A DNA stretch of 45,604 nt from Candidatus Bathyarchaeota archaeon (GTDB taxonomy: Archaea > Thermoproteota > Bathyarchaeia > 40CM-2-53-6 > RBG-13-38-9). Position 1 is the stretch's first letter; every line of letters begins with the position of its first letter. Below, in pieces: positions 31,889 through 39,692 of the stretch. A program made the position numbers and the translations under genes. Where the stretch lies: the NCBI GenBank assembly GCA_026015185.1, contig JAOZGX010000106.1, forward strand, positions 1-45,604, read 5' to 3'. The notes under the pieces are model-generated. The model had not been told where the DNA came from and did no database searches. It saw only the letters and a list, made by a program, of their open reading frames with translations.

Positions 31889-33850
31889 ATGATAAAGGGT
31901 GTTATTCTTCAGAACTTTATGTCATATGAAAATGCTGATATAAGGCTTAAAGATGGGCTGAATATCATTTGTGGTCCTAATGGAGCTGGCAAATCATCAA
32001 TCCTTCTAGCCATTTCTATAATACTTGGGCAGACATATACTGAAAGATCAAGACGCTTAAGTGATTTAATTAGATGGGGGGCAGATCAGGCTAGAATAAC
32101 ACTTCAAATAGAAAATAGAACAAAAGAAGGAAAGAAATTATTTCCATATTACAGATCAAATGTAATTGAAATAACTCGGATTATCAAAAAAAATGGCGGT
32201 TATTCTTATTTAATTCAGAATAGAACAGTTTCAAAAAATACTGTTATTTCTGCTTTCAAGAAACTAGGCATCAATCCAGATAATATGCTTTTGATAATGC
32301 ACCAGCTTATGGTAATTAAATTCAGCTCTGTTTCGCCTCAAGATAAATTAAGATTACTCGAAGAGGCTATCGGATTTCAATCTTACAGGCAATTTATTTT
32401 GGAAGCATATGATAGACTAAATAAAGCTGTTAATGAAGAAAAATCTCTTACCTCTATGATTGAATCTACAAAAGAGACATATGATTTTTGGAAAAAAGAA
32501 CATGAAAAATATTTGAAGAAACAGGAATTAGAGAAAAAATTAGCAGAGCTGAAACGTGAATCATTATGGACTAATGTAGAAAATAAGGAAAGCACATTGT
32601 TTCAACTTGAAGGTAGAATAGTAGCTCAAGAAAAAATATATGGTAAATTAGAAGAGAGGTCGGTAAAGGCTTTATCATTATGTAAGGAAAAAGAATCATC
32701 GTTTGAAAAGATAAGACAAGTAGCTAAAAAGCTTGAAGAAGAAAAGCTGAATATAGTAAAGGATGCAACTTCATATAATGTCGGCATTACTTGGGCAAGA
32801 AAATTCCTAGATGAAATGAAAAATTTTGTTCTAGACCTTGAAAAAGAAATCGAAACTAGACCTGAGTTAAAAGGGATATTGGAGGTTTACAAAAAGAAAT
32901 TTGAAAATAGAGAAAATGAAACGAATTCATTGTTAAGAGAATTTGAGAAAGAACTCAAAGGAATAGGAGGAAGAGAAGAATCTATCAAGAAACAATCGAT
33001 AGTCATGGAAAAAAATTACGATAATACGCTATCGGAGATTATTGATTCAAAGATAAATACAGAAATGCTTAATTTCAAAAAAAGCTCTCTCTCAGAGGAA
33101 TTGCAAGAGTTAGAAAACAAATTAAAGGTACTAAAAAAAGAACTTGAACCAATTTTAATAGAAGCCAAAAAATCAGGACCGAGAATTGTAAACCTAAGAA
33201 AAACAGTTGATATTGATAAAGAAACAGCTATCATAAAAGGACAATTGATCCCACTATCATCTATTTCTCAAAATGTTGAGAAAATGTTTGAGTCTCATTC
33301 TTCATTGTACAAGGAATTAAAGGAAAAGGCAGAAATTGTTGCAAAAAATAGAAAAATTACAATGATTGAGTTGAAAAAACGTCTGGATTTCTGGCGAGGT
33401 GAAATTGTTAAATTCTTATCAAAATTGACCATAGCATTCAATAATATTTTAGCAGAAGTTGGAGCGACTGGTACTATAAAGTTGGTTAATGAGAAAGAGA
33501 TCAATAAAGCAGGCATAGATCTTCAAGTTGGATTTAGTGAAAGAAAACCCGTTTCTTTAGATTCATTGGCACAAAGCGGGGGAGAAAGGAGTGTAGCTCT
33601 CATGGCTTTTCTACTTGCTTTACAGCAGCATATTGCTTCACCATTTAGAGCTATTGATGAATTTGATGTGCACATGGATCCAAGAAATAGGGAAATAATT
33701 TCTAGATTAATTGTCAACAGTGCAAAAAGTATGAAAAGTGGGCAATATGTAGCCATAACCCCTGGGCAGATAACGATGATGGATAAAGACATAAACATAA
33801 TAGTAGTCCAAAATATTGACGGTTCTTCCCTTGTAAGTGAATTAAAATGA
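31889..33850 (+). CDS. SMC-like ATPase, hinge-less, Smc5/6-type head
   Basis: A 653-residue ABC-type ATPase with split head domains. The N-lobe has L-Q-N-F-M-S-Y near the start, Walker A G-P-N-G-A-G-K-S-S (29-37), a conserved L-S-D-L-I-R-W-G (57-64), and S-P-Q-D-K-L-R-L-L-E-E-A-I-G (149-162). A central coiled coil of about 330 residues (170-500) has no recognisable hinge domain. The C-lobe has signature S-G-G-E-R-S-V-A-L-M-A (563-573) and Walker B F-R-A-I-D-E-F-D-V-H-M-D-P-R-N-R (586-601). The I-D-E-F-D-V-x-M-D-x-x-N-R form resembles Smc6 more than canonical SMC or Rad50 (which has a zinc hook, absent here). It is followed by two smaller genes that look like SMC partners. Alternatives are a RecN-like or coalescin-like protein. 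Confidence 0.8.
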   Translation: MIKGVILQNFMSYENADIRLKDGLNIICGPNGAGKSSILLAISIILGQTYTERSRRLSDLIRWGADQARITLQIENRTKEGKKLFPYYRSNVIEITRIIKKNGGYSYLIQNRTVSKNTVISAFKKLGINPDNMLLIMHQLMVIKFSSVSPQDKLRLLEEAIGFQSYRQFILEAYDRLNKAVNEEKSLTSMIESTKETYDFWKKEHEKYLKKQELEKKLAELKRESLWTNVENKESTLFQLEGRIVAQEKIYGKLEERSVKALSLCKEKESSFEKIRQVAKKLEEEKLNIVKDATSYNVGITWARKFLDEMKNFVLDLEKEIETRPELKGILEVYKKKFENRENETNSLLREFEKELKGIGGREESIKKQSIVMEKNYDNTLSEIIDSKINTEMLNFKKSSLSEELQELENKLKVLKKELEPILIEAKKSGPRIVNLRKTVDIDKETAIIKGQLIPLSSISQNVEKMFESHSSLYKELKEKAEIVAKNRKITMIELKKRLDFWRGEIVKFLSKLTIAFNNILAEVGATGTIKLVNEKEINKAGIDLQVGFSERKPVSLDSLAQSGGERSVALMAFLLALQQHIASPFRAIDEFDVHMDPRNREIISRLIVNSAKSMKSGQYVAITPGQITMMDKDINIIVVQNIDGSSLVSELK

Positions 33851-33869
33851 AATATGGAGGGCATCATAA

Positions 33870-34673
33870 ATAACTGCCAAAGCTAAAAAAGAGATAATCG
33901 AAATAATCGATACATGTAGAGCTATAGAAAATAGAAAATTCAACCCTTTTTTGTTGAATGTGGAACGATCATTAAAAACTTTAGAAAAAAATCTAGCCTC
34001 CTTCAAATCTAAAAACGAACAATGTATTGATAGCGAAGCCTTAAACGAGATTACAAAAGTGATTATGCTTCAAGATAATCAATTAAGATTTCAGTCAAGT
34101 AAATTCTTCATAGATCCAGAGACTATTAGATTTAAATTTAGAAAACTGTCAAGAGAAAAATTAGCTGAGGTATTTGCATCTAGTTGGCATCCGATATTAG
34201 GGCTTGAACAATTAACATCTCAAGGATTTTTAAATGCATTTGATTATTGGCAAGAGCTTCTACCAATAAGTGAAAGGTTAAGGAGGCTGGATATCGGTAA
34301 GCCAAATAAAGCTCAGGATATTGATGTGGAAAGATTAAATAAAATGGGCATAGCCTCTGAAGAAGAATTTTTTAATAAGCTTGAAAGGTTGTGGAAGGAA
34401 TTAAAAGACAAATATTCTACTCAAGGTAAAATAGAGTATTGGAAATTCATTTTTGATAGTAAATTCTCGACAACAATTGATAAAGCCTACCTTCTAAGCT
34501 TCCTTATTACAAATGGATATGTGGGATTGATAGGAAAAAGTAAGGATCTATTCCTAATTCCAAATAATAAAAAGGAGAAACAAAATCGAATAAGTTTTCC
34601 AATATCAATTAGTAAAAAGGACTGGGGCCAATGGCAAAATCTAGAGAGAAAAACTACTTTAGTGGGAAATTGA
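33870..34673 (+). CDS. Kleisin-like predicted SMC partner (hypothetical)
   Basis: I recognise no family with certainty. The first standard start codon is TTG 33951, giving 240 residues. However, the frame is open and coding-like from the TAA at 33867, and GGAGG at 33856-33860 lies nine bases before ATA 33870, which I take as the start (about 267 residues, beginning with a helical A-K-A-K-K-E-I-I-E-I-I). From TTG numbering, the region 137-206 looks like a winged helix with W-K-F-I-F-D-S near the start and L-L-S-F-L-I-T-N-G-Y-V-G-L-I after it; the N-terminal part is helical. A helical N-terminus plus C-terminal winged helix, beside an SMC gene, fits a kleisin. That is inference. It overlaps the next gene by 4-43 bases. 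Confidence 0.6.
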   Translation: MTAKAKKEIIEIIDTCRAIENRKFNPFLLNVERSLKTLEKNLASFKSKNEQCIDSEALNEITKVIMLQDNQLRFQSSKFFIDPETIRFKFRKLSREKLAEVFASSWHPILGLEQLTSQGFLNAFDYWQELLPISERLRRLDIGKPNKAQDIDVERLNKMGIASEEEFFNKLERLWKELKDKYSTQGKIEYWKFIFDSKFSTTIDKAYLLSFLITNGYVGLIGKSKDLFLIPNNKKEKQNRISFPISISKKDWGQWQNLERKTTLVGN

Positions 34674-35179
34674 AAAAAGCCGTTAGGTTATTGATGTATA
34701 GAAGGGGTAGAATACCTGGGGCTAAAGAATGGGAGCTTAGGGAAAAACTCGGTGCTGATTATAAAAAAGTAATTGCTCAATTAAACGAACTATTAGATGA
34801 TTTGGGATTGGAAGTAAAAGAAATTATTGAACCCTCCACAAATCATTTTGATTCTGGAGAAAGCACTCGCTTTGTAGTTACCTTAAAGGATGAATCCTCT
34901 ATTGATGAAGCTAAAATGATAGGTTGGCGAATTGATAATCTTGCTGGACTTGCCATTACTATTTCATTAATAATGTCTAAACAAGGTAAAGCTCCAATAG
35001 AAGAAGTTGAAAATATTTTAGCTGAAAAGTTTGGAAAATGGAAAGCAATGACATTATTAGAAACATTCACTAGGAATGCGTATGTTATAGAAGAAGAATC
35101 AGGACTATTAACATTAGGTTGGAGAGCAAAAGCAGAAGTTGATTTAAAAAAATTGATGAAAATTACAGCTAAAATTTGA
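34631..35179 (+). CDS. Tandem winged-helix, KITE-like predicted SMC partner (hypothetical)
   Basis: A 182-residue protein with two probable winged-helix domains (about 14-85 and 100-178). The first has L-L-M-Y-R-R-G-R-I-P-G-A-K and Y-K-K-V-I-A-Q-L-N-E-L-L. The second has I-S-L-I-M-S-K-Q-G-K-A-P-I-E-E-V and ends with L-T-L-G-W-R-A-K-A-E-V-D (161-171). This closing G-x-R-A-x-x-E pattern resembles the end of MAGE/Nse3 and related KITE proteins, dimeric winged-helix partners of SMC-kleisin complexes. ATG 34631 overlaps the previous gene by 43 bases; TTG 34670, in a TTGA overlap with its stop, is an equally good start (M-K-K-A-V-R-L-L-M). Family assignment is tentative. Confidence 0.65.
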   Translation: MAKSREKNYFSGKLKKAVRLLMYRRGRIPGAKEWELREKLGADYKKVIAQLNELLDDLGLEVKEIIEPSTNHFDSGESTRFVVTLKDESSIDEAKMIGWRIDNLAGLAITISLIMSKQGKAPIEEVENILAEKFGKWKAMTLLETFTRNAYVIEEESGLLTLGWRAKAEVDLKKLMKITAKI

Positions 35180-38096: not shown

Positions 38097-39692
38097 ATGT
38101 CAAAAGACGAAAAATATGACTTTTCAAGAAGAAGCTTTCTAAAGACTGTTGGTACTGCAGTTGTTGGCTTGGCAGTAGGTGCAGGGATTGGCTATGGAGT
38201 GTATCCAACAATCAATCCATCTGGAGTTGAGAAGACAGTCACTGTAACCACTGGAGAAGGACCAGGAGGAATCACTTCTATTCCAGTTGAAGGTAAGGAA
38301 CCCCATGAAAGGTTAATGAATGCGATGATGCATGTCGTAGAGAGAGATGGACTTAATGGAAAAGATTTTACTCTAATGCATCCTGGAGGAGGTTCAGCAT
38401 GCTATGCTTCTGTTAGTGATAAATTTAATGAAACTGGATTAAATTTTGTAAATGCTGAGGTTCCGCTAAATGAAATATTTGACAAAGTTATGCTTGAAGC
38501 AGTTAGCAAGACTGGTGATTACGATGCATTCAGCCTTCAGCCAATGATGTTAGGGGATGTTGCCGAGTCTGGTGTTGTAATCCCTCTAGATGATTATGTT
38601 AAATGGTTTGATAATCGATTCCATGGATTGCCTGATGGATATGTATACCCCCTTGATTATATCATGGCTGAGTATAAGGGAAAGAAGTATTTGACCCCAC
38701 AAGATGGAGATGTGCACTCTCTTTACTTACGTACAGACTTGTTAAATGATTCGACCAATCAAGATAGCTTTGAGCAGCAATATGGCTACCCACTGAAGCC
38801 AGCCGAGACAATTCAGGAATATCAGAACCATGGTGAGTTCTTTAATAACCCCGATGAAGACTTCTATGGTTTAGGAGAGTTCAGAAGTTTAGAAAGGTGC
38901 TATATCGTATGGTTCACATACTACTCTTCAATGAAATATCCAAATATGCTGCCCTTCGATGAGAATATGGATCCATTGATAAACAGCAACGAGGGAATAA
39001 AAGCCACTGAGGAATTTGTAGAATCCTTGAAGTACATGGCAGCGGAAGTTCCATCATGGGACTGGCAAGTAGGATATCAGATGTATTCAAGTGGTCAAGT
39101 ATATACATCTATAAATTTCCCATCCATGTCAAACATAAACAATGATCCTGAAAGGTCTAAAATAATTGGTAATTGGGCTGCCGATATTGTTCCAGGTCAC
39201 AAAGTGAAAGGTCCAGACGGTAAAGATATACTACTTAGAAGAAGCGTGCAAGGAGCAGGATGGGGCATACTTGTTAGTAACTATTCAAAAATGAAAGATT
39301 TTGCAGCTTTATGGGCCTTATGGTTTACTAGTCCAGAAATATCCTCAATAGCTGTAAGTTTTCCTGGTTCATGGATGGATCCAACAAGATATAATCATGT
39401 TGGACCTAATGCTGACGAACGAGTCATGAACGCTAGAGGTCCTATTCTAGAAAAATTTGAGCAGAATGCTAGTATATGTGTTCCGGTAGTCAGTGGAATC
39501 AGAGGCTGCTTTGAATATAATACGACATTGAGCAGAAATCTCCATATAACGATGCTAGGTCAAATGGATCCAGCAGAGTGCATGGAAAGAACAACTGAAG
39601 AATGGAATGAAATTACTGAGAGAATAGGCAAAGAAAAACAGGTAGAAGCTTGGAAAGATTTCATGAATGCATATCCAACAACTATTTTATAA
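38097..39692 (+). CDS. Tat-exported extracellular solute-binding protein
   Basis: A 531-residue family 1-like (sugar/oligosaccharide or polyol type) binding protein. The N-terminus has the twin-arginine motif S-R-R-S-F-L-K (10-16) followed by a hydrophobic stretch rich in Gly/Ala/Val to about residue 38, so the folded protein is exported by the Tat system and likely stays membrane-anchored by this segment. The body has features of such proteins (a Y-K-G-K-K-Y-L-T-P-Q-D segment, W-G-I-L-V-S, and F-T-S-P-E near the end). No permease or ATPase gene is adjacent; the nearest ABC genes are the ECF module 6.4 kb away, which does not use this type of receptor. AAAGGAAAAG precedes the ATG. The ligand is unknown. 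Confidence 0.88.
   Translation: MSKDEKYDFSRRSFLKTVGTAVVGLAVGAGIGYGVYPTINPSGVEKTVTVTTGEGPGGITSIPVEGKEPHERLMNAMMHVVERDGLNGKDFTLMHPGGGSACYASVSDKFNETGLNFVNAEVPLNEIFDKVMLEAVSKTGDYDAFSLQPMMLGDVAESGVVIPLDDYVKWFDNRFHGLPDGYVYPLDYIMAEYKGKKYLTPQDGDVHSLYLRTDLLNDSTNQDSFEQQYGYPLKPAETIQEYQNHGEFFNNPDEDFYGLGEFRSLERCYIVWFTYYSSMKYPNMLPFDENMDPLINSNEGIKATEEFVESLKYMAAEVPSWDWQVGYQMYSSGQVYTSINFPSMSNINNDPERSKIIGNWAADIVPGHKVKGPDGKDILLRRSVQGAGWGILVSNYSKMKDFAALWALWFTSPEISSIAVSFPGSWMDPTRYNHVGPNADERVMNARGPILEKFEQNASICVPVVSGIRGCFEYNTTLSRNLHITMLGQMDPAECMERTTEEWNEITERIGKEKQVEAWKDFMNAYPTTIL

Follow-up and report, generated by a model that had tools for sequence, protein, structure and literature searches.

A three-gene locus of Candidatus Bathyarchaeota appears, from its sequence, to be a stripped-down archaeal relative of the eukaryotic Smc5/6 complex, in which an SMC ATPase lacking a hinge is encoded together with homologues of Nse4 and Nse1/Nse3. 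The locus lies in positions 1-45,604 of contig JAOZGX010000106.1 (GCA_026015185.1), the whole of which is referred to here as the window. We consider it very likely that the products of the three genes make up the core of a minimal complex of SMC, kleisin and KITE, belonging to the Smc5/6 branch, that would clamp and move or hold DNA. Such a minimal complex had been proposed in an initial annotation of this DNA, and all three of its component assignments are supported by sequence.

Layout of the locus and gene starts

The features of the locus, all on the + strand, are listed here with the evidence for each.

31889..33850, +: hinge-less SMC5/6-related SMC ATPase, 653 aa (ORF; profile against PDB chains; head tree)
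31973..31999, +: Walker A GPNGAGKSS, residues 29-37 (core positions do not vary in the 18-member alignment)
32411..33403, +: hinge-free coiled-coil hairpin with no zinc hook, residues 175-505 (segment length; no CxxC; no SMC_hinge)
33575..33589, +: ABC signature SGGER, residues 563-567 (invariant in the 18-member alignment)
33638..33694, +: Walker B and D-loop SPFRAIDEFDVHMDPRNRE, residues 584-602, Smc6-like (18-member alignment; PDB profile)
33856..33861, +: GGAGGG, probably the ribosome-binding site of the kleisin gene (sequence; 8 nt before ATA 33870)
33870..34673, +: Nse4-family kleisin, 267 aa counted from ATA (Nse4_C; PDB profile; Foldseek; conserved N-terminus)
34029..34094, +: conserved kleisin N-terminal helix, candidate SMC-neck binder, residues 54-75 (weak Nse4 alignment)
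34431..34637, +: Nse4_C winged-helix domain, candidate SMC-cap binder, residues 188-256 (PF08743; 4i99 fold match)
34631..35179, +: KITE protein of 182 aa, cysteine-free and with probable tandem winged helices (Pfam and profile matches to Nse1 and MAGE/Nse3; model; Asgard KITE homology)

The three ORFs were found where the initial annotation had placed them (SMC, 31889-33850; gene 2, ending at 34673; gene 3, 34631-35179). Its description of two overlapping downstream genes holds for the kleisin and KITE genes, which overlap at 34631-34673, but not for the SMC and kleisin genes, which are separated by 19 nt. The start at TTG 33951 given by mechanical ORF calling cuts away an N-terminal helix of the kleisin that is conserved in the relatives examined, and the reading frame is open upstream to ATA 33870, immediately after a stop codon. 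Because the conserved N-terminus extends upstream of TTG 33951 and GGAGGG lies 8 nt before the ATA, ATA 33870 is likely to be the true start. The conserved start of the kleisin is often without ATG, GTG or TTG: it is ATA in the window and in two further loci (L013 and L024), where the ATA stands exactly at the position of the ATG in a close relative, and it might be CTG in two others (L026 and L030).

The KITE gene is the last of the operon, and the genes beside the operon encode an ECF-type transporter, an MFS transporter, a SIS-domain protein and a diphthamide synthase. Contamination of the contig is unlikely, the best relatives of a neighbouring gene being in the same family and genome. Elsewhere in the window, positions 38097-39692 encode a 531-aa protein without a Pfam match, of which three more copies (64-85% identity) exist in the same genome.

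The SMC ATPase and its missing hinge

The sequence supports the assignment of the first gene product to the Smc5/6 clade as an intact split ABC ATPase. The catalytic motifs are kept across the SMC family members compared, and the Walker B region, which the initial annotation had likened to that of Smc6, reads SPFRAIDEFDVHMDPRNRE at residues 584-602 and has the D-E-F-D-V-x-M-D pattern in common with Smc6. When a family profile built from 18 relatives was ranked against PDB sequences, all ten Smc5/Smc6 sequences outranked every Smc1-4 or prokaryotic Smc (Smc5, 1.7e-60; SMC6, 1.9e-57; Smc6, 1e-54; human SMC5, 2e-48), the best canonical Smc following at 1.2e-46. Canonical Asgard SMC heads gave the reverse ranking, with Smc5/6 far under Smc1-4.

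An unrooted maximum-likelihood tree built from 361 alignment columns for 44 head pairs (Rad50 and RecN left out; four eukaryotic sequences, read from printed alignments) split the canonical SMC proteins from a group made up of Smc5, Smc6 and the Thermoproteota and Asgard proteins, with support of 99.7/100. Topologies that nested the heads of Thermoproteota or of Smc5/6 with canonical SMC proteins, archaeal or bacterial, were rejected by the AU test (p 5e-5). Another constraint, placing the Thermoproteota SMC with canonical SMC, gave p 0.079, which is not a test of clade membership since an unrooted tree is compatible with a basal position of these proteins. The claim of Smc5/6-type heads is thus borne out by the PDB ranking, the head tree and the AU test. 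Within the group the order is less settled, with Thermoproteota joined to Smc5 at 84/89 and the monophyly of Smc5 plus Smc6 compatible with the data (AU 0.44).

The length of the coiled coil recalls RecN, which is likewise short and hinge-less, and NCBIfam Rad50 models match the window SMC at ~55 bits. It might on these grounds be a Rad50- or RecN-like repair ATPase with two unrelated winged-helix regulators for neighbours, a reading that we find scarcely credible: prokaryotic SMC models score far higher, at 170 bits, there is neither a zinc hook in the protein nor an Mre11-like gene in the operon, and the two neighbours have been identified as a kleisin and a KITE. Membership of Rad50 itself is ruled out by family scores and by the lack of a zinc hook (CxxC) and of an Mre11 partner gene in the operon, and that of RecN on family scores; by these scores the heads are unlikely to group with either family, an outcome that the initial annotation had allowed for. 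The ASRP proteins (coalescin ClsN, Sph) are also short archaeal SMC-like ATPases, but the vast majority of them have a zinc hook and the window SMC has none; membership is ruled out by a score of 43 bits to NF045487, against a cut-off of 300 bits, and by the lack of CxxC.

The inter-head stretch of the window SMC is 331 residues long, in agreement with the ~330-residue coil without hinge or zinc hook that had been claimed, and it contains neither a Pfam SMC_hinge match nor a C-x-x-C zinc hook. Among 18 members of the SMC family in which SMC_hinge was sought, none matched it; in all 34 family proteins compared the inter-head segment measures 239-357 aa and lacks CxxC, and its conserved residues lie only near the heads. 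A recognisable hinge and zinc hook are absent from every one of the 34 Thermoproteota SMC proteins examined. Hinge-less SMC proteins of marine Actinomycetes, also without a zinc hook, are described in PMC12153180; these are bacterial and, in the available part of that text, are reported without partners.

Operons of similar composition occur in Asgard archaea (L177-L185, L037), with an SMC of ~850 or 1155 aa, a kleisin and a KITE, and several of them have a further gene upstream, which in L177 encodes an AAA+ ATPase. The Asgard KITEs match the Thermoproteota KITE profile with a probability of 96; the match of the Asgard kleisins to their Thermoproteota counterparts is weaker (84). Three of the Asgard SMC proteins (L177, L181 and L037) match SMC_hinge, for which reason we infer that loss of the hinge in the Thermoproteota line is the simpler reading, and that the hinge-less form is more likely a derived sister of Smc5/6 than its ancestor. 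The suggestion of a relationship to the ancestor of Smc5/6 is supported in part, the tree giving no firm branching order for Thermoproteota, Asgard, Smc5 and Smc6. A different arrangement was observed in Asgard genome G449 (L146, 7827-13563), which encodes an SMC of 1057 aa, a winged-helix-like protein, an Nse4_C protein (0.0013) and a KITE-like protein; this SMC groups weakly with Smc6 in the head tree (87/87).

The kleisin and KITE partners

The second gene product is supported as an Nse4-family kleisin with a kleisin-type C-terminal winged helix. Pfam Nse4_C (PF08743) was found in 16/17 members of its family; the window protein itself scores 25.6-25.9 bits, just under the curated cut-off of 26 bits, and that of a named Bathyarchaeota relative scores 27.1, above it. 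The kleisin profile matches yeast Nse4 (8e-7) and human EID3 (1.7e-6) in the PDB, and the conserved N-terminal helices align weakly but in order (4.4 bits) with the matching stretch of the Nse4 N-terminus. The fold models of the kleisin and KITE were made with two sequences each in the alignment and both are of low confidence; that of the kleisin (pLDDT 48.5) nonetheless retrieved kleisins in all of the first six places of a Foldseek search, and its winged helix matched the ScpA C-domain 4i99 at 2.3 A (TM 0.74 by target length). A kleisin-like partner ending in a winged helix, as initially claimed, is what the Nse4_C domain, the Nse4/EID3 profile matches and the Foldseek result indicate.

For the third gene, whose product ends in GWRAKAEVDLKKLMKITAKI as had been read earlier, the sequence evidence supports, at the level of the family, a KITE related to both Nse1 and Nse3. 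Over 36 family members the commonest Pfam families are Nse1 (7/36, best 1.2e-4) and MAGE (7/36, best 2.8e-4), with ScpB in 1/36. The top PDB match of the family profile is a MAGE-domain chain (0.0026), with Nse1 and Nse3 chains among the weaker matches; taken singly, the protein of the window matches nothing significantly in Pfam or the PDB. Its model shows the order HHHEE-HHHEE-H, but at a pLDDT of 54 and without a significant match in the fold search. The KITE-like partner is accordingly borne out for the family through its Nse1 and MAGE matches, and the small proteins, with an Nse4 kleisin and an Nse1/MAGE-related KITE, do not belong to unrelated families.

The genome of the window also carries a complete canonical Smc-ScpAB set on contig 42 (L206, 3628-8443), in which the gene of a 1204-aa SMC precedes genes resembling ScpA and ScpB, the latter two named from sequence by eye. 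Since both this locus and ours are SMC-kleisin-KITE sets, one might suppose that the window complex arose as an offshoot from canonical Smc-ScpAB, its likeness to Smc5/6 being due to convergence or slow evolution. We hold this to be very improbable in view of the rejection of nested heads (AU p 5e-5), a kleisin whose Pfam match is Nse4 and not ScpA, and a KITE family that matches Nse1 and MAGE (7/36 each) against a single ScpB match in 36. The canonical complex differs further in its hinge, its SMC length of ~1200 aa, its other head clade and its ScpA-type kleisin. With the Smc5/6 core, one of the closest known systems, the window complex shares one head clade, an Nse4-family kleisin and an Nse1/Nse3-related KITE. 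Smc5/6 has two SMC and two KITE genes, whereas the window complex has one of each, the genome holding a single SMC5/6-like gene and hence no second, different SMC subunit. It also differs from Smc5/6 in its missing hinge, short arms and lack of a RING; its KITE is without cysteines and its operon without an Nse2, Nse5 or Nse6 gene.

Conservation and distribution of the operon

Within the class, nearly all loci that are sufficiently complete show the order SMC-kleisin-KITE, with the genes mostly adjacent. Among 20 loci of other families in the phylum, the KITE gene lies downstream of the kleisin gene in 20/20 and adjoins it in 19/20, and the SMC gene is present in 18/20 (on the opposite strand in L187). 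The co-occurrence of the three genes is thus seen in relatives across the phylum, as a true complex had been expected to show, and the recurrence of three mostly adjacent families means that the observation is not due to chance. A large gene, similar by eye to Lhr-type helicases, is convergent with or near the KITE gene in L186, L191, L192, L199, L201, L203 and L205. A scan of genome contigs, which returned mostly Walker A matches, yielded one true Bathyarchaeota relative and two Lokiarchaeota contigs, and no matches to the kleisin or KITE were found in viral contigs.

The kleisin was found in 126/300 Thermoproteota genomes and an SMC hinge in 119/300; the two occur together in 52 genomes, and 74 have a kleisin but no detected hinge, the latter count varying with how sensitive the search and how complete the genomes are. 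This SMC is missing from eight other genomes of the window's own family, from which it follows that the complex is dispensable there. Such absences would also suit a defence system of the Wadjet/Lamassu kind, in which an SMC-like protein senses the DNA of plasmids or phages; the window SMC does match ABC/SMC families of defence systems (mad3, 88 bits; AriA, 58; LmuB, 49; JetC, 32), and Smc5/6 itself takes part in antiviral immunity (PMC10586767). We nevertheless think a defence role unlikely, given that the operon has no nuclease or other effector gene and is bordered by the transporter, SIS-domain and diphthamide synthase genes, that the kleisin and KITE match no PADLOC model, and that the complex occurs in fixed gene order in 59/127 genera of the phylum, unlike patchy defence islands. 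Wadjet (JetABCD) in particular is ruled out, as genes 2 and 3 adjoin no nuclease gene, where Wadjet has the Toprim nuclease JetD, and have no PADLOC match. The earlier suggestion of an anti-plasmid machine consequently finds little support.

A working model can be drawn from Smc5/6, where the N-terminus of Nse4 attaches to the neck of SMC6 and the KITEs to the Nse4 linker (PMC7297730). By analogy, two copies of the SMC would engage head to head over ATP. A single kleisin would bridge them, gripping one copy at the neck with its N-terminal helices and the second at the cap with its C-terminal winged helix, and a KITE homodimer would be placed on the kleisin linker. DNA might then be clamped in the space bounded by the heads, the kleisin and the KITE dimer, and be moved or held by cycles of ATP, in the service of chromosome maintenance or repair. 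There is no hinge to account for dimerisation, and the far ends of the short arms would either have no closure or be joined by contacts between the coil tips. The composition of the complex is read from sequence; its stoichiometry, assembly and DNA movement are proposed by analogy with Smc5/6. The complex would act beside canonical Smc-ScpA-ScpB in the window organism and might be the sole SMC complex in many other Thermoproteota.

An "SMC5/6-related" archaeal SMC clade has already been named in PMC9389158; that clade very probably comprises the window SMC clade or its hinge-bearing relatives. In the available portions of that paper neither a kleisin or KITE partner nor an operon or the loss of a hinge is mentioned, and the word "kleisin" occurs nowhere in the paper. 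We found no account of archaeal Nse4/KITE partners or of hinge loss for this clade in the literature searched, which excluded preprints and most subscription papers. SMC complexes are stated to be absent from Thermoproteota in PMC12153180, Crenarchaeota are described as being without them in PMC7055376, and whether Smc5/6 gained and then lost HAWKs or branched off earlier is posed as an open question in PMC5228436.

The present findings suggest that Thermoproteota often have an SMC complex after all, and that archaea had a complex of the Smc5/6 type before eukaryotes arose. SMC rings and loop extrusion are held to require the hinge. An SMC-kleisin-KITE complex that naturally lacks one would offer a direct test of its role, and the small size of the components suits reconstitution. 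An archaeal Smc5/6-type SMC accompanied by Nse4 and a KITE favours an early, separate Smc5/6 branch. In its fullest form, to which we would give an even chance, the picture is that of a widespread hinge-free archaeal SMC motor, closed only by heads, kleisin and KITE dimer and serving as the sole SMC complex of many Thermoproteota, which together with its hinge-bearing Asgard cousins reveals a separate archaeal Smc5/6 set of SMC, Nse4 and KITE; if that set was indeed already separate in archaea, Smc5/6 would never have swapped KITEs for HAWKs.
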